DNA of 20,261 nucleotides. It comes from a virus. This document shows, piece after piece, positions 8,669 through 20,225 of this stretch. Positions within the stretch are counted from its first letter, which is position 1. Every line of letters starts with the position of its first letter. The notes below the pieces were generated by a model, which ran no database searches, was not told where the DNA came from, and was given only the letters and a program-made list of their open reading frames with translations. The translations under genes and the position numbers were made by a program. The stretch lies in the IMG/VR virus record IMGVR_UViG_3300046821_000143, positions 1 to 20,261 of that record. One strand, written 5' to 3'.

Positions 8669-8711
8669 TTTCACCTCAAATAATTTTTCAAACGCTACGT
8701 TTCTCATTGAT

Positions 8712-8747
8712 TTTTCCTATAATATATAGTACATTTACACTTGTCAA
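8712..8747 (-). promoter_or_regulatory. Consensus sigma-70 promoter for the leftward recombination operon
   Basis: On the - strand: -35 TTGACA (8742-8747, 6/6), a 17-bp spacer, and -10 TATTAT (8719-8724, 5/6). The expected transcript start is near 8712. It lies in the 97-bp gap between the operon's first gene and the divergent HTH gene, so the HTH protein is a likely regulator. The spacer contains GTGTAAATGTAC, a possible imperfect operator. On the + strand a perfect TATAAT (8718-8723) overlaps the same site, but no fitting -35 was found for it. Confidence 0.7.
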
Positions 8748-8765
8748 CATCTTTTTAGGATAAAT

Positions 8766-8969
8766 ATGAATTTAAAACAATACATGACGAAAACAAATAT
8801 TGGATACAGAGAATTAGCAAAAAAAGCAGGGGTCCATCACACAACGATCTTTTCTTTTCTCAATGGGCGAACTAAAACATTTCGCCCTGAGATTGCAGAA
8901 AAGATTTCAAAAGCTACCGACGGCAAGGTTAGTTTTTTATGCTTGGTTACCGGAAAAGATCAGCCCTAA
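8766..8969 (+). CDS. Small Cro/CI-like helix-turn-helix regulator
   Basis: 67 residues, with AGGA 5 bases before the ATG. The HTH covers about residues 15-34 (RELAKKAGVHHTTIFSFLNG), followed by a helix FRPEIAEKISKAT. This is the XRE/Cro fold, with no oligomerisation or peptidase domain as in full CI repressors. It is the only + strand gene between 5.6 and 19.6 kb, divergent from the recombination operon, and its last bases overlap the end of the opposing helicase gene by 4 bp. It likely binds the shared 97-bp promoter region and controls the leftward promoter and itself. It could be a Cro-type switch or a simple timing repressor. The target site is inferred from position only. Confidence 0.85.
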   Translation: MNLKQYMTKTNIGYRELAKKAGVHHTTIFSFLNGRTKTFRPEIAEKISKATDGKVSFLCLVTGKDQP

Positions 8970-10378: not shown

Positions 10379-10617
10379 AAAATTAGTTTTACCTTAAAAT
10401 TAGGAGTCTCAATTCCACCATAAATTGGATTAGGCCAACTTCTACCTTGAATTTGTTTTTCTGGTTTTATTAGATCAATTAGCCTTGATTTACTCGACAT
10501 AAAATCATGCATGCAATACTTGGCCTTAAACATGTCTTCCATCGTTTTACAATTAACGAATGATTGGATTGCCTGGAGTCTGAATTGGGATTGGTATCCC
10601 ACGAATTTATATTTCAT
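10375..10617 (-). CDS. Unknown small protein between the homing endonuclease and the helicase
   Basis: 80 residues from the ATG at 10617. A longer frame begins with TTG at 10653 but has no nearby Shine-Dalgarno. The ATG start overlaps the HNH gene by 11 bp, and the end overlaps the helicase ATG (ATGA), which suggests coupled translation. The N-terminal part is helical and basic (FRLQAIQSFVNCK, FKAKYCMHDFM). The C-terminal part has SWPNPIYGG followed by a FKVKLIL strand. No known family is recognised. Confidence 0.6.
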   Translation of the reverse strand: MKYKFVGYQSQFRLQAIQSFVNCKTMEDMFKAKYCMHDFMSSKSRLIDLIKPEKQIQGRSWPNPIYGGIETPNFKVKLIL

Positions 10618-11179
10618 CTCTATAGTCTTTGAATGAGTTTTTCTTAGCTTCAACTACTAGTCTAAATATTTCTCCAAAGGATTCATTTCTTTCACCCCTG
10701 GCCATCTTGCTAACATAATTAGAATTAACATTGAAATGCTCTGATATTTTCGTCATAGGCATTTTTACTATCAGTGTAGCCATTGTGAGCTTTTGAATAT
10801 CATCTGTTGACCTCTCTTTATTTTCTAGATGCCTACCTGCCTTTGCAGAGTGGCTTATATTTTCAGCAAGAGAGCACCACTCTAGGTTGTCTAATCTGTT
10901 GTTAGATGGGTTAAAATCTATGTGATTTACTGTTAGATTGGGTTGATCACCTAAAAAGGCACATGCCACCAATCTATGAATCCACATATGCTCTATCTTA
11001 TTTTCCCTATATAACGAAATCAGTTTATATGGCCTAATTCCTCTATCCGACAAAAACCTCTCTCTTATTCTTCTGTGACCACTAGGAGATCTTACCAATC
11101 TAGACAGTGACCTAACTCTCCCATAGCTTGAGACTTGGTAAAGCCCTTCATATCCTTTAATGTCTTTCCATTCTTCCAT
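10607..11179 (-). CDS. Free-standing NUMOD4-HNH homing endonuclease
   Basis: 190 residues. Residues 1-25 form a NUMOD4 motif (EEWKDIKGYEGLYQVSSYGRVRS), a DNA-recognition module of phage homing endonucleases. An HNH motif follows at about 85-105 (VNHIDFNPSNNRLDNLEW), with catalytic His and two Asn. Further on, helical DNA-binding segments (about 125-165) include a possible HTH (MTKISEHFNVNSNYVSKMARG). It should cut DNA at a specific site and help its own gene spread. It sits 8 bases after the primase stop, with no sign of a split host gene on either side, so it is free-standing rather than intron-borne. Confidence 0.9.
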   Translation of the reverse strand: MEEWKDIKGYEGLYQVSSYGRVRSLSRLVRSPSGHRRIRERFLSDRGIRPYKLISLYRENKIEHMWIHRLVACAFLGDQPNLTVNHIDFNPSNNRLDNLEWCSLAENISHSAKAGRHLENKERSTDDIQKLTMATLIVKMPMTKISEHFNVNSNYVSKMARGERNESFGEIFRLVVEAKKNSFKDYRDEI

Positions 11180-11187
11180 TTTAATTC

Positions 11188-13539
11188 CTATAGTAAAAAA
11201 ACTTGAGGATTCACATGAATCACCATTGAGTTTTCTCTTTGCTTGGCCAGGTACACATAACCTCTAATCTCCAACTCCTTCAGTGCATGATAGAAAGTCC
11301 CTGGAAATCTCACAGTATGTCTGACTTGCTGATAAGCTTCTGATTGAGTCATTTCATCTTTAAAGAATCTAATCCTGAATAACTCAGCTACCTCGATTAG
11401 AGTCTTGTGATCCTGGTCATGGTCTTTAATGTTGAATAGGAATTTGGCGCATTCCCCCAGGTATATTAAAAGTCTCATGGCCATATCAAGACCATACTTA
11501 GTGATGAACTTTGGCTTCTTCCCCTCTTTCGCTTCCATAAACTCATATAAATAAGCAATCGTGCAGAGAAGCCCCTCATGTTTTGATAGGAATGATCCCA
11601 CTGGAATATGTGAGTACTTAATAGCATTTGCTCTAATGTGAAAAATTAGATCATTGTAGTATTCAATCCAATCGGGATGGATATGAACAATGGCCTGCTC
11701 AGAGTGAAAAGCTCTATTGTAATGCTCATATTGTTTAACGAATTTTGCATAATCAATCTGCGTGGGCTTTGTGGCGATCGGTTCACCGAAAGGTACCAAT
11801 ATAATTCGTTGTAGGAATCCATCATTTTCTCCATATGCGCTGTACAGTGATTTAATGTACGCGGATAAAACATCGGGCTGAACATTGGTTAAAAGAGAGA
11901 GATAAAAATCGTCGATAGTATCGTCGCCACGGCTAATAGTAGAATAAGAAAATGATTGATTCCCATCGAGTCCCTTCATGTAAAAAGTTCTAGCGTCTTC
12001 ATTGCCCTTCTTTTTGAAGTCAGCAAAGATTTGTTTCATTTCATCTTTTAATAATAATAACCCAGTTCCCTGGTTTCTTTTTGCATCTAATATCATTTTT
12101 TGAATTGGTGCATTCTCGTATAGGAACTTTGTTCCACGTGGAGCATTTTCATCAAGTTCATCTTGCAGCTTGAATATTTCAGCATTAATGGACTCGATAT
12201 CTTCCCCAGGCCTTTTCTTCTGCTTAGTAAGCATCTCTATTTTAGAAGTGATATCCTCTATTTTAGTTAATAACTCACGGCTATTTATCGACTTTAGGCC
12301 CTTATCGATCTTCACCAACTCGCGTACAGCATTGTTAACGATATCTGATTTCTTAGATCCAGAAGTTGCAACCATGGCAACAGCTAGATTGGTACGTTTG
12401 AAGAATGGATTATTAGGAAGCGGCTGAACCTTGGTATTCCCCTGTAGACATGCCCCCATTGCTGTGAACATAGACATAAAGATCCCCTGGTGGGGAGCTC
12501 CTTGGGCCAGATGTAGTTCATCAATCATCGATCTCCAAGACTCAGGAATAAGGCCCTTGTCGAAAACTGGCATACCTTCGTACATATTCTCTGGACGATC
12601 GATTACCGGCTGTAAGGGCCTAAAGGTGATTCCTGGGACTTCTAGTGGCGACATATAGTCAACAATGCCACCAGTGTTGTTGTGAACGGTTGTGAGCATA
12701 CTATGAAGGTAGCCCATGACATTGATTGATTTATTATTACTTTTATTGTGGGCCTTTCTAGTGTCTAGAAAGAATGAATTGTCTGGGAAGTGTTTTGCAT
12801 CAAACTCAATTAGCTCAGATGCTATTTTATTAACGTCTGGCTCTGGATTATCTTTCAGTAAGCGGCCACATAATGCATTGATGGCAATCGTGCGATTCTG
12901 GCCATCTTTAAACTGTTGATGCTTAGGAAGGTTTATATTCAGCGATTTTGCTGAAGCTGAACCAATAAGCTTTCCAATATTCTCAACATGAGCTGAATTG
13001 ATTACCGGAAGATTATCAGGATCAGTCTTAAGGAAATCTACAGTATGATCAAGCCATACGTAATTCTTGTCTCCCTCATACCAAGAGGGAGGCATAACAA
13101 TCTGACGTTTGTTATAAAAAACTTCAATTATCCCAAGATTTCCCGGGCAAGTGAATTTGTAATAGTCTCTAGTATTCTTATCATCAGTCTGGAAGAATAG
13201 AGTTAAACCTTTCCCTCCACGCTTTTTAAAAGGAGAGTGAAAGTATTTAACAATTTTCTCGATGATCTCATCGTCTTCAGTATCAATATCTACAGCTACT
13301 AGCCCTTTAGATGTAGGGCCCATAAGCAGCCCAAGTCCTGTGATTTTATCACCTAATTTACTGAACCATGAATTTACTAGATCCATTGGATCTTCGTAGT
13401 CTTCCCATGGGAGGTCCAGGTAGTTATCGATTAATGGCCTTTTCCCCTGTGATTTCGCAGACTTACCTACTGGTATTACTTTGTAGCCTAATAGTAAGTA
13501 CGCCTCGAAATCGTCGGGGGTAACTAGATTCTCATTCAA
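11188..13539 (-). CDS. PrimPol-DUF3987 fused primase/helicase-like replication protein
   Basis: 783 residues. The N-terminal ~190 residues are an archaeo-eukaryotic-type primase-polymerase domain: GLGLLMGPTSKGLVAVDID with catalytic Asp84 and Asp86, the RGGKGLTLFF segment (107-116), and IEVFYNKRQIVMPPS (138-152) with Glu139. The C-terminal part (about 330-783) looks like DUF3987, a helicase-like ATPase. Its Walker A is weak (ATSGSKKSD near 390, keeping Lys-Ser but lacking the first Gly), and its acidic LLLLKDEM near 495 is in the Walker B place. A coiled coil lies between these (about 415-465). It likely primes and unwinds DNA at the phage fork. The only fitting start is TTG at 13539, with AAGGAA 7-8 bases upstream. 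Confidence 0.85.
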   Translation of the reverse strand: MNENLVTPDDFEAYLLLGYKVIPVGKSAKSQGKRPLIDNYLDLPWEDYEDPMDLVNSWFSKLGDKITGLGLLMGPTSKGLVAVDIDTEDDEIIEKIVKYFHSPFKKRGGKGLTLFFQTDDKNTRDYYKFTCPGNLGIIEVFYNKRQIVMPPSWYEGDKNYVWLDHTVDFLKTDPDNLPVINSAHVENIGKLIGSASAKSLNINLPKHQQFKDGQNRTIAINALCGRLLKDNPEPDVNKIASELIEFDAKHFPDNSFFLDTRKAHNKSNNKSINVMGYLHSMLTTVHNNTGGIVDYMSPLEVPGITFRPLQPVIDRPENMYEGMPVFDKGLIPESWRSMIDELHLAQGAPHQGIFMSMFTAMGACLQGNTKVQPLPNNPFFKRTNLAVAMVATSGSKKSDIVNNAVRELVKIDKGLKSINSRELLTKIEDITSKIEMLTKQKKRPGEDIESINAEIFKLQDELDENAPRGTKFLYENAPIQKMILDAKRNQGTGLLLLKDEMKQIFADFKKKGNEDARTFYMKGLDGNQSFSYSTISRGDDTIDDFYLSLLTNVQPDVLSAYIKSLYSAYGENDGFLQRIILVPFGEPIATKPTQIDYAKFVKQYEHYNRAFHSEQAIVHIHPDWIEYYNDLIFHIRANAIKYSHIPVGSFLSKHEGLLCTIAYLYEFMEAKEGKKPKFITKYGLDMAMRLLIYLGECAKFLFNIKDHDQDHKTLIEVAELFRIRFFKDEMTQSEAYQQVRHTVRFPGTFYHALKELEIRGYVYLAKQRENSMVIHVNPQVFLL

Positions 13540-15630: not shown

Positions 15631-15834
15631 TTATTGTTCATCTTGATATTCCTCGACTGCTAGTTCTATATTTAATTCTTTTGCTATTTCTAATATACTT
15701 TGAACCATAGAGGCCCAATTACCAATGTCGTAAGCGTCCCACGAAATATCTTGTGTTTGACGTAGACTAAGTTCTTGGGATTCACAGTCTGTTAGTAATG
15801 ACTGTAAGTGACCTTGTAATAATTGTTTATTCAT
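15631..15834 (-). CDS. Unknown small acidic helical protein
   Basis: 67 residues, mostly helical, with a strongly acidic C-terminus (ELAVEEYQDEQ). The start overlaps the stop of the HNH gene upstream (ATGA), so it may be translated by coupling. No family is recognised. Confidence 0.65.
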   Translation of the reverse strand: MNKQLLQGHLQSLLTDCESQELSLRQTQDISWDAYDIGNWASMVQSILEIAKELNIELAVEEYQDEQ

Positions 15835-16271
15835 ACATTTAATCCCTTCCTTTTTAAATATCTATTATGCATACAAACTCTACAATCCCTAGCAAGTGCG
15901 TTTTTTCTCCTGTATGTGTTTTCATAAGAAAATACGTGTCCATGTTTACAGTGGGTTTTAATCTTGTTTGCTGCTGATGTGCTATTACTATTATTTAAAA
16001 CATTTTCTCTATTGCTGACCTCTCTGAGATGATCGGGATTACAACATAGCCTATTTTTGCAAATATGATCTATTACCAGTCCACTATTTATTCTTCCGTG
16101 GAACATTAAATAGCTACACCTATGAGAGTAGTAGTACTTTCCATTAATATGGAATTTGCCATATCCATTTTTCTTACTATTGGAATAACCTGTCCAGTTC
16201 CAGCAGTTACCATCGGATATTGAAATTTTAGATATAAATTTTATGTGGTCAAATTCTGGTATTTCTTTCAT
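15831..16271 (-). CDS. HNH endonuclease (paralog A)
   Basis: 146 residues. A cysteine/His frame (CWNWTGY, HRCSY) is followed by the HNH core VIDHICKNRLCCNPDHLREV (about 65-85), with the catalytic DH and N-H positions. A second zinc pair follows (HCKHGH, CRVC). This matches phage HNH_3-type homing endonucleases that nick or cut at defined sites. It is a clear paralog of the gene at 17910-18368: both begin with (I)PEFDHIKFISKI and share the core. GGTG lies 4 bases before the ATG. It is free-standing between small genes. Confidence 0.88.
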   Translation of the reverse strand: MKEIPEFDHIKFISKISISDGNCWNWTGYSNSKKNGYGKFHINGKYYYSHRCSYLMFHGRINSGLVIDHICKNRLCCNPDHLREVSNRENVLNNSNSTSAANKIKTHCKHGHVFSYENTYRRKNALARDCRVCMHNRYLKRKGLNV

Positions 16272-17395: not shown

Positions 17396-17623
17396 CTAAT
17401 AATTAATTGCTTCATAAACATTGTCGTCGATATTGCTGTCTTCCCATTCAACGTGGAAGTCTCCCGAATAACCTGAACCATCACAACTTTTGCAAAACTC
17501 CCGCGCATCATCCACACAAGCGCAGCGATTAGCGTCTAGTACTGTGTCCACCTCTGGAGAGTTATGAGGGCCTTGATAAAGAATTTTTCCAGTCCAACAT
17601 ATAATTTTAATATTTGGATTCAT
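17396..17623 (-). CDS. Small DnaJ-like zinc-finger protein (CxxCxGxG)
   Basis: 75 residues. Cys34/Cys36 (RCACVDD) and a CxxCxGxG motif (Cys44-Lys-Ser-Cys47-Asp-Gly-Ser-Gly) form one DnaJ-type zinc site, with the paired cysteines spaced unusually (CxC rather than CxxC). Only one such motif is present, against four in DnaJ, so this is a stand-alone mini-finger like those of some phage and plasmid proteins. It could bind unfolded protein or nucleic acid. ATGA overlap with the gene before. Confidence 0.65.
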   Translation of the reverse strand: MNPNIKIICWTGKILYQGPHNSPEVDTVLDANRCACVDDAREFCKSCDGSGYSGDFHVEWEDSNIDDNVYEAINY

Positions 17624-17913
17624 ATTAACCTCATTTCTATACTATCAGCTAAATAACGCCACGAATTAAATGCCTTATTAACATAATCTTGGATCCCAAC
17701 GTGAAAAGCTTCGGGTTCAATTTCAGCTCTATAACCATACTGTGAGATGACTGGGAATAATTTCCTATCAGATAAGGCCCAAAATTGACTTAGAATCTCA
17801 TTTTTAAAGTCGCTATAATCAACTTGCTTTCCTCTCCTGTCATGCTCGCCAACAAAATCAGCGTCAATAATTCGCTTACATTGTGCAAGTGTCATATGCT
17901 TAACTCGACTCAT
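17620..17913 (-). CDS. Unknown protein
   Basis: 97 residues. Mainly helical and charged, with a His/Asp/Arg-rich N-terminal part (DADFVGEHDRRGKQVDYSDF). It overlaps both neighbours by ATGA. No family is recognised. Confidence 0.65.
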   Translation of the reverse strand: MSRVKHMTLAQCKRIIDADFVGEHDRRGKQVDYSDFKNEILSQFWALSDRKLFPVISQYGYRAEIEPEAFHVGIQDYVNKAFNSWRYLADSIEMRLI

Positions 17914-18368
17914 ACTAACCCCATTTTTAGTTTAGATACTTTCTTTCTTCTTCCTGATATAGAATGTTTATTTGCGCATTTTCTACATGTCCTAGACCCA
18001 TGGGCCGAATATCTAGTATTTTCTTCATTAAACTCATGTCCTCTTTTGCAATGAGTTTTTTTAGAATTTAAAGCAGACATTGATCCAGAGTTTTCTAGCG
18101 TATTTAGTGTTCTTGTAACCTGTCTTAAGTGATCAGGGTTTACGCATTTTTTATTCATACACATGTGATCGATTACCAGGCTATCTAAAAGCTCCCCATT
18201 AAATAAATAGTAACTACACCTATGAGCTAGAAATGCCTTACTTTTGAAAGAAAACCTTCCGTAACCATAAAATATATTGCCCTGCCATTCCCAGCACCCA
18301 GATTTAGCCACTTTTATCTTGCTAATGAATTTAATATGGTCAAATTCTGGAATTTTAACCGCTTTCAT
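17910..18368 (-). CDS. HNH endonuclease (paralog B)
   Basis: 152 residues. It has the same plan as the 15831-16271 protein: a short N-terminal helix (IPEFDHIKFISKI, identical in both), CWEWQG, HRCSY, the HNH core VIDHMCMNKKCVNPDHLRQV, then HCKRGH and CRKC zinc pairs. The C-terminus is basic (GRRKKVSKLK). It should cut DNA at a site of its own. It differs from its paralog by a shorter CWxW loop and a longer basic tail. The ATG overlaps the previous stop by one base. Confidence 0.88.
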   Translation of the reverse strand: MKAVKIPEFDHIKFISKIKVAKSGCWEWQGNIFYGYGRFSFKSKAFLAHRCSYYLFNGELLDSLVIDHMCMNKKCVNPDHLRQVTRTLNTLENSGSMSALNSKKTHCKRGHEFNEENTRYSAHGSRTCRKCANKHSISGRRKKVSKLKMGLV

Positions 18369-18873: not shown

Positions 18874-19018
18874 TATTACCTCTCGACTCCAAGACCTCAA
18901 CTCGGTCACCATTTCTAATCAACCATCTTGCTGAATCAATAGTTCGGTAATGGGCCATTGCTAGCTCAAGGTCTTCGTAGTCCAAGTTTTCCAGATTAAA
19001 TAAAATTATAGAGTACAT
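18863..19018 (-). CDS. Unknown 51-residue protein
   Basis: The frame runs from the ATG at 19018 to TAA at 18863. The ATG overlaps the stop of the gene before (TAATG), and the 3' end overlaps the next gene by 11 bp. It opens with MYSIILFNLENLDYEDLELA, then a Trp/Arg-containing helix (ARWLIRNGDRVEVL). It fills an otherwise empty 145-bp space, which supports it. No motif is recognised. Confidence 0.65.
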   Translation of the reverse strand: MYSIILFNLENLDYEDLELAMAHYRTIDSARWLIRNGDRVEVLESRGNNVE

Positions 19019-19257
19019 TACATTTTACCTACAGCTAAACGCTCTTTAATTGACTCGGTAACCACAAGCATGACCATTGACTCAAGATTATCCATCTCAG
19101 CTTCACAATTTACTGCGCTGTGGTATTTGATCAGGTGTCTAATATGCTTAAAGGAGTGTAACGCTTCAAGTCTGGTAATCTCCATTCTTTCCAATAACTC
19201 AATAAGAGCTTTCATTCTATTAATCACATGCTCAAAATTCATTTCATTACCTTTCAT
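19018..19257 (-). CDS. First gene of the leftward early operon, unknown helical protein
   Basis: 79 residues from the ATG at 19257, or 74 from the ATG at 19242. The first has GGGGGA six bases upstream, the second AAAGG seven bases upstream; the sequence does not decide between them. All helical, with a Met/Leu-rich core (MKALIELLERMEITRLEALHSF). It sits right after the consensus promoter, so it is one of the first phage proteins made. No motif is recognised. Confidence 0.6.
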   Translation of the reverse strand: MKGNEMNFEHVINRMKALIELLERMEITRLEALHSFKHIRHLIKYHSAVNCEAEMDNLESMVMLVVTESIKERLAVGKM

Positions 19258-19271
19258 AATCAATCCCCCGT

Positions 19272-19307
19272 TGAAAACAAGATAAAATAAGTGAATACGA
19301 TTGTCAA
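19272..19307 (-). promoter_or_regulatory. Sigma-70-like promoter for the leftward early operon
   Basis: On the - strand: -35 TTGACA (19302-19307, 6/6), a 17-bp spacer, and -10 TATCTT (19279-19284, 4/6). The transcript start would be near 19272, 15-30 bases before the first ATG. It shares TGTTGACAA with the promoter at 8742-8747, and lies just outside the left arm of the inverted repeat. Confidence 0.62.
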
Positions 19308-19320
19308 CAATAATAATTCA

Positions 19321-19436
19321 ATTAAGTTTTTACTAACGGTTCGTTAAGTTGGTTAAGTGAAAATTAACTGGGAATTAACGGGTTACAGCTTATTCCTTAA
19401 TGTTGCTAATGAATTGAGGTGCCAAAACAGAACATC
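19321..19436 (+). repeat. Left arm of a 116-bp imperfect inverted repeat
   Basis: Compared with the reverse complement of 19528-19643, it aligns without gaps over 116 positions, about 82 identical by hand count. Matching blocks include TTACTAACGGTTC(G/A)TTAAG, TTAACTGGG(A/G)ATTAAC, TTCCTTAATGT and AAAACAGAACATC. TTAA occurs at 19322, 19344, 19353, 19364, 19375 and 19397. Confidence 0.88.
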
Positions 19437-19527
19437 TTCTTTTTTTTTAATCATCAAAATACCTATATAAAAAAAATACTCTTTTTTTATTGTGTATATA
19501 CAATCACGAAGAGTGAAAAAAAAAATG
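19437..19527 (+). other. AT-rich core of the inverted repeat (possible DNA-unwinding element)
   Basis: 91 bp between the two arms. It is very AT-rich: a T-run (19438-19448 region) on the left, an A-run (19515-19525) on the right, TATATAAAAAAAAT in the middle, and the perfect palindrome GTATATAC at 19494-19501. Such a core flanked by binding arrays is typical of replication origins or strong divergent control regions. Short A-tracts also bend DNA. No gene is seen here. Confidence 0.5.
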
Positions 19528-19643
19528 GATGTTCTGTTTTACCACCTAGGAAACGCTCGTACATTAAGGAAAACTCCCTAACCTGTTAATCCCCAGTTAA
19601 AAAATAATTAATAGACTTAATGAACCGTTAGTAATATCTTAAT
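19528..19643 (-). repeat. Right arm of the 116-bp imperfect inverted repeat
   Basis: Mirror copy of 19321-19436. TTAA occurs at 19564, 19586, 19597, 19608, 19617 and 19639, so the spacings (22, 11, 11, 9, 22) are the exact mirror image of the left arm. It ends 18 bp before the ATG of the next gene and overlaps no coding frame. Confidence 0.88.
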
Positions 19644-19660
19644 GAAAAAAAGGAGGAAAA

Positions 19661-20203
19661 ATGCCAAGAAAAAAAAGAGTTTATGATGAGAATGGAAAGG
19701 TTGTACCAACTTTCAAAGAGTTAGGAATCACCCCACAAATTGAGCAGAGCAAAATGGAAATGGGTCGAGAGCTGTATCAAGATTGGTATGAAAAGAAAGT
19801 TGAAGCATGGCAACTAGTAAATGAACCAAAGATTCAGCAAGAAAAGATGGCAAAGGCCGCAAAAGAGAAACTTAAGGAGGTTAATCACTGGTATAACGAA
19901 ATGCCAAAAACTAAAGTTAGATCATTAATATTATCAGCTGCGTCGAAAAAAGACGTAGTATTTGAGGTTTTCTTGACCAAAATTAAGATGACCTCACCTC
20001 TTTATATGTATTACTTAAATCTAATCAGCAGAATAGAGGAAGAGAATCTAGATATTCCCACTATTGAATATAGTAAGTTAACCAGGTTTCCTAAGTATTC
20101 ACGAAAAGATGATAAGTTAATAGGTTCATCTCATACATTTGTTGCTATGTTTACTAGCTGCTTTCCACCAGATAGAAGATCATCTAAGTCATTAATGCTT
20201 TAA
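19661..20203 (+). CDS. Unknown basic helical protein; first rightward gene after the inverted repeat
   Basis: 180 residues, with a near-perfect AGGAGG 5 bases before the ATG, the strongest site in the window. The N-terminus is very basic (MPRKKRVYDENGK). Residues about 25-90 are long helices rich in Lys, Glu, Gln and Trp (ELYQDWYEKKVEAWQ, KMAKAAKEKLKE). The C-terminal half is helical with a basic end. Size, charge and place at the start of a rightward unit would suit a terminase small subunit, an initiator or a regulator, but no family motif is recognised and none of these is shown. It may bind the adjoining inverted repeat. Confidence 0.75.
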   Translation: MPRKKRVYDENGKVVPTFKELGITPQIEQSKMEMGRELYQDWYEKKVEAWQLVNEPKIQQEKMAKAAKEKLKEVNHWYNEMPKTKVRSLILSAASKKDVVFEVFLTKIKMTSPLYMYYLNLISRIEEENLDIPTIEYSKLTRFPKYSRKDDKLIGSSHTFVAMFTSCFPPDRRSSKSLML

Positions 20204-20205
20204 CC

Positions 20206-20225
20206 GCTAGGGCGAATGCCCTAGC
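20206..20225 (+). terminator. Perfect 8-bp hairpin after the 180-residue gene
   Basis: GCTAGGGC and GCCCTAGC pair fully around a GAAT tetraloop, 2 bases after the stop codon. The following bases (TTCTATCTATCT) are pyrimidine-rich but not a clean T-run, so this is a weak intrinsic terminator, a processing site or an mRNA-stabilising hairpin. Confidence 0.5.

Follow-up and report, generated by a model that had tools for sequence, protein, structure and literature searches.

Mirrored direct-repeat arrays around an AT-rich core form a candidate replication origin and control region in two related phages

The window, the whole stretch of DNA analyzed here, is a 20,261 bp fragment of the record of a phage, an uncultured virus of bacteria. 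A long inverted repeat is located in it between the head of the leftwards-transcribed replication and recombination genes and a rightwards-transcribed gene coding for a 180-residue protein. This agrees with a preliminary description of the sequence, which had placed the site between divergent operons, and it raises the question of what a repeat of this size and regularity does there; the roles offered in that description were a replication origin, a partition or packaging site, or a master control region.

The left arm (19321–19436) and the reverse complement of the right arm (19528–19643) form a gapless alignment of 116 positions, of which 82 (71%) are identical, matching the earlier hand count. 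Chance is excluded as an explanation: none of 200 dinucleotide-shuffled versions of the region gave an ungapped inverted-repeat score above 21, whereas the best score in the real sequence is 70. A BLASTN comparison of the window with itself recovers this repeat at E 1e-40 and no other strong one, the runner-up having an E value of 0.17. The mismatches are clustered, with 27 runs versus 49 +/- 4.4 and none of 5000 shuffles as low, and the 13 consecutive positions at outward offsets 20–32 all differ between the arms; the identity is thus concentrated in blocks separated by drifted stretches, as had been noted by eye. Although the arms differ at 34 of 116 positions, none of these mismatches falls on the 24 TTAA positions (P about 7e-5).

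Each arm has six TTAA sites at mirrored positions, and the spacings of 22, 9, 11, 11 and 22 bp given in the preliminary description hold for the window. The offsets are 1, 23, 32, 43, 54 and 76 in both arms, corresponding to positions 19322, 19344, 19353, 19364, 19375 and 19397 on the left and 19564, 19586, 19597, 19608, 19617 and 19639 on the right. Six TTAA sites within 120 bp also occur near position 592, so such a density is not unique to the repeat. The organization is better described by a longer unit, ACCAGTTAAT, returned by an unsupervised motif search, with six shared units at identical positions in both arms (steps of 11, 11, 9, 11 and 11 bp). The left array (19321–19400) contains about seven such direct-repeat units by EM consensus, in 9–11 bp steps and reading outward on the minus strand, and the right array (19564–19643, plus strand) is its mirror image; the count of about seven units per arm follows from degenerate units (TTAG, TAAC) present in the 22 bp gaps between TTAA sites. 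Clusters of at least three units on one strand within 45 bp are found in the window in the two arrays only. The units are kept while the spacers drift, which favors selection acting on the sites.

A search of viral and genome contigs with the Prim-Pol, 180-residue, tail and TerL proteins, and with a TerL DNA pattern, yielded one useful relative, IMGVR_UViG_3300035436_000189 (38,276 bp; hereafter G001), which is the sole close relative found. The other contig fragments recovered, L012, L013, L014 and L017, are without the repeat region, searches of phage and plasmid collections gave no close relative, and the portions examined of the more distant phages G003 and G004, which need not include the orthologous region, have no comparable inverted repeat. 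In G001 the site has the same layout, with leftwards-transcribed replication genes opposed to a rightwards-transcribed one-gene unit (about 180 residues), and an inverted repeat at the same place, whose arms are 66% identical with gaps, is seen after the contig ends are joined. These ends (L009:1–141 and L007:337–477) overlap by exactly 141 bp inside the repeat core; the overlap is probably the assembler k-mer and the contig circular, and we take the junction to be true because the conserved core and promoter flank it. By our estimate, a contig break at this very spot has about a 1% chance if breaks are random.

The repeat unit in G001, again from an unsupervised search, is TTTTACTTAT, with steps mostly of 9–11 bp in the left arm and less regular in the right, and the units of both phages point outward from the core on both sides; clusters of at least three units are almost confined to the arrays, with a single three-unit exception at 17561–17581. 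TTAA itself is not kept, G001 having two such sites on the left and none on the right. Contrary to what the preliminary description had proposed, it is therefore neither these tetranucleotides nor their exact spacings that are conserved, and what persists is an array with 9–11 bp steps; the grounds for rejection named in that description, relatives in which the TTAA spacing is lost, apply to TTAA and not to the array. We do not claim a common register of the units for the two phages: the first two lie equally distant from a shared ACC, but the lag test is weak (0.18 at lag 0 and equally high elsewhere). The other part of the earlier proposal stands: comparison of the sequences supports reading the arms as an array of putative protein sites that has two-fold symmetry, roughly follows the turns of the helix and is under selection as units.

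Each of the four arms was divided into three segments (array, inner part and core half), and all pairs were compared with shuffles. With the borders drawn after the sequences were seen and the shuffles keeping base composition only, the arrays are alike within each phage (z 12.4 in the window and 7.8 in G001) and no better than chance between phages (z 1.5 left, -1.5 right), whereas the inner parts are alike both within each phage (z 4.9 in the window and 6.5 in G001) and between phages on the same side (z 4.0 left, 3.7 right), and not crosswise (z -0.1 and 1.2). The inner left arm (19401–19436, minus strand) includes one block common to the right arm and another, arm-specific, whose match is in the left arm of G001 (ACCTCAA..CATTA), and the inner right arm (19528–19563, plus strand) has an arm-specific block matching the G001 right arm (AAACG.TCGTACA). 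These arm-specific blocks indicate that both arms already existed before the two phages diverged, and hence that the left and right arrays have been rewritten together since that time. In-step change is thus a well-supported reading of the pattern in these two genomes, and it could reflect a shared binding protein, gene conversion between the arms, or both.

The core between the arms (19437–19527) is about 90 bp of 81% A+T, located between T9 and A10 tracts, and is a candidate DNA unwinding element. It is the least stable 90 bp stretch of the window (rank 1 of 20172 windows), and the G001 core ranks 73 of 37783, the third-lowest independent place in that genome; its right half (19483–19527) is conserved in G001 at 37/43 positions (z 7.7, with the borders and shuffles described above). 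The cumulative GC skew, suggested earlier as a check, turns at the inverted repeat in both the window record and G001. Such a turn is consistent with an origin, but because the direction of the genes also shapes the skew, it does not separate an origin from the gene layout.

A predicted leftward early promoter (19279–19307, minus strand; TTGACA-17-TATCTT, 10/12 matches) is located 13 bp outside the left arm and is kept in G001 at 38024–38061 (85% over 38–39 bp). The operon that follows is headed by an 81-residue open reading frame (19018–19263, minus strand) with a TTG start, or possibly a later ATG, and no family match. On the other side, a Shine-Dalgarno sequence (AAGGAGG, 19650–19656, plus strand) immediately follows the right arm and serves the gene for the 180-residue protein (19661–20203, plus strand). 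The product is 41% identical to that of the G001 gene at the equivalent place and has no match in PHROG, Pfam, NCBIfam or PDB; its predicted model is of low confidence (mean pLDDT 60) and gives no significant fold match. An intrinsic terminator follows the gene (20206–20225, plus strand; 830–849 in G001), and the G001 genes beyond the homologue have their own promoter (TTTACA-17-TATAGT, 973–1001), so the gene looks like a separate unit and not like the head of a late operon. A search for a sigma-70 promoter in front of it found no good one.

The leftwards-transcribed genes include one coding for a Prim-Pol and DUF3987 fused primase-helicase (11188–13539, minus strand), a candidate replication initiator or helicase that is 82% identical in G001 and whose C-terminal domain gave an unusable predicted model (pLDDT 40). 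Further products are a helicase, a Sak4-like annealase, an SSB-like protein, and Cas4-like and DnaQ-like exonucleases. Within this gene group, in the region of 8690–8780, is a rightwards-transcribed gene for a 67-residue HTH protein of the Cro/CI type (86% identical in G001), which faces a second conserved leftward TTGACA promoter across a short intergenic gap. Three HNH_3 genes are also found here (10607–11179, 15831–16271 and 17910–18368), one with a NUMOD4 motif, and a further HNH gene follows the homologue of the 180-residue gene in G001.

G001 also codes for a putative terminase, a portal and other structural proteins, with the putative terminase genes starting about 2 kb from the repeat. 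We note that its TerL-like gene (L009:3180–3800) has an in-frame insert of about 110 residues right after the Walker A motif (GRKFGKS), ending HN|T, which looks like a mini-intein lacking the endonuclease; the TerL genes of L012 and L013 are without it. A separate region of G001 (L003:3551–3661), near an HNH-like coding sequence, has a perfect 24 bp inverted repeat, CATCGGTATTAAAGGCAAAAACAT, within a 108 bp palindrome-like match (E 3e-10) unrelated to the main repeat. On a contig of a more distant phage, near the terminase genes, an open reading frame at L014:244–705 resembles by eye a sigma-70 region 2/4 protein.

The reading that we favor, tentatively and at a probability of roughly 0.45, is that the two mirrored iteron arrays around an unwinding element are the replication origin of the phage, with a layout like that of the origins of phage-inducible chromosomal islands (PICIs), and probably also the control region of the divergent transcripts. 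A phage-encoded protein would bind cooperatively to the repeats, on a single face of each arm, and the two protein filaments, related by the core dyad, would help to open the AT-rich core; a primase-helicase would be loaded at the opened core, from which replication would proceed bidirectionally. Binding within the approximately 320 bp between the leftward promoter and the gene for the 180-residue protein would also control both transcripts. Counted in favor of an origin are that the repeat is real and unique, the presence of units in both phages, the stability minimum of the core, the shared layout in G001 and the turn in GC skew, together with the coding of the Prim-Pol/DUF3987 primase-helicase, SSB, Sak4 annealase and Cas4-like exonuclease by the phage. 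Counted against it are the distance of the site, 5.8 kb upstream of the Prim-Pol gene where PICI origins are directly 3' of rep, the fact that AT-rich intergenic DNA is often least stable anyway, and the comparison being of two genomes only. No repeats that might indicate a rival origin were found beside the Prim-Pol gene. Among the roles offered in the preliminary description, origin and master control region emerge as the two best readings, and no positive evidence points to partition or packaging.

The candidates for the array binder are the 180-residue product and the Prim-Pol/DUF3987 protein. The former is suggested by its position and its divergence (41% identity), both of which fit. The Prim-Pol protein is conserved through to its C-terminus, whereas the arrays have diverged beyond alignment; this contrast also counts against the origin reading, and it would suit a more quickly evolving binder such as the 180-residue protein.

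The PICI origins (SaPI and E. coli PICI) consist of two short sets of direct repeats, or iterons, flanking an AT-rich stretch and lie directly 3' of rep or pri-rep, and PICIs code for a primase-helicase that is sometimes fused (PMC6092414, PMC7581432). The locus described here resembles them in having two iteron sets on either side of an AT-rich stretch, and in a primase and a candidate initiator helicase being encoded, here as the Prim-Pol/DUF3987 fusion. It differs in being between divergent operons and on the 5' side of the Prim-Pol gene, in the sequence of the iterons, and in that iteron binding is here only putative. The elements differ too, PICIs being helper-dependent satellites with an integrase, and this being a phage that has terminase, portal and tail genes; a Pfam search of the window record and of G001 gave no integrase or resolvase domain. 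With its position not being 3' of rep, the site would work like a PICI origin rather than being a member of that class. Origins of the lambda type (O protein and ori lambda) and of iteron plasmids also have direct repeats beside an AT-rich unwinding region, as seen here, and their initiators may regulate their own genes; they differ in having a single set of iterons of about 18–22 bp, in one orientation and on one side, rather than two mirrored sets in 9–11 bp steps.

The main rival is a transcription switch with no replication role, in which an early regulator bound to both arrays would silence or tune the leftward promoter and activate or autoregulate the transcript of the 180-residue gene, in the manner of phi29 p4/p6 or of lambdoid operators. 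We hold this to be possible, with a weight below that of the origin, and one site could serve both. The left array ends close to the strong, conserved leftward promoter, the rightward unit ends in a conserved terminator and has no good sigma-70 promoter that was found, as expected of an activated one, the core has kept its right half in G001, and arrays alike within and different between phages are what operators tracking one regulator would give. In phi29, the DNA that separates the divergent early (A2c/A2b) and late (A3) promoters has p4 sites with A-tracts and is remodeled by p4 and p6 (PMC3100819), and the array of putative regulator sites and the A-tracts seen here, between an early promoter and a rightward transcript for which no good -35 was found, may be reminiscent of this. 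The four p4 sites are, however, inverted repeats with a 15 bp gap (CTTTTT-15 bp-AAAATG; PMC3100819), whereas the locus has about 14 direct-repeat units of 9–11 bp in one mirror arrangement, and no relative of p4 or p6 was noticed. Moreover, the regulator is hypothetical, and about seven units per arm with a core at the stability minimum exceed what a promoter switch needs.

The remaining explanations carry much less weight. A packaging or genome-end site (pac, cos or a terminal repeat junction) is suggested by the opening of the G001 contig within the core, but its overlap has the length of a common assembler k-mer, which we take to indicate circular assembly, the window runs intact through the site, and the putative G001 terminase genes start about 2 kb away; we regard it as very improbable. 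Slightly less probable again are RNA leaders, each arm acting like a nut or put site in the 5' leader of one divergent transcript. Such sites do come in pairs in divergent phage operons, the arms point outward and the right one abuts the Shine-Dalgarno sequence, but the predicted folding of the arms does not exceed that of shuffled sequences (z +1.2 and -0.4), the mismatches have no G-U bias (11/34 transitions), an Rfam search gave no match, and the best leftward promoter is outside the left arm, which is therefore not transcribed from it. The least probable is that an inverted duplication has left a neutral relic here. Some stretches of the arms have indeed drifted completely, but the mismatches avoid the repeat units, and an inverted repeat persists at the site in both phages despite their differing array sequences. 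Intrinsic bending as the purpose of the site is also disfavored, with a wedge-based prediction giving average curvature for the window arms and a high value for the G001 right arm alone.

Returning to the origin, the site is most likely where copying of the phage DNA starts and the gene switch is controlled. A more specific proposal, which we consider unlikely in its full form, is that one nucleoprotein site would be both origin and early/late switch, with its mirrored arrays rewritten in step with a fast-evolving and hitherto undescribed binder, the 180-residue protein, so that the origins of related phages would be mutually blind. The different immunities of lambdoid phages offer a likeness, their OL and OR operators being different in related phages whose other genes remain similar; these operators have three dyad sites of about 17 bp each, in contrast to the long direct-repeat arrays here.

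The most interesting part is the apparent in-step evolution of the two arrays, a pattern drawn from two genomes. Rewriting of mirrored arrays between related phages would provide a natural test of co-change between a binder and its sites, and the 180-residue proteins, should they be what binds the arrays, would constitute a new DNA-binding family. A PICI-like origin in a phage with structural genes, if true, would either link satellite and phage replication or show their convergence.
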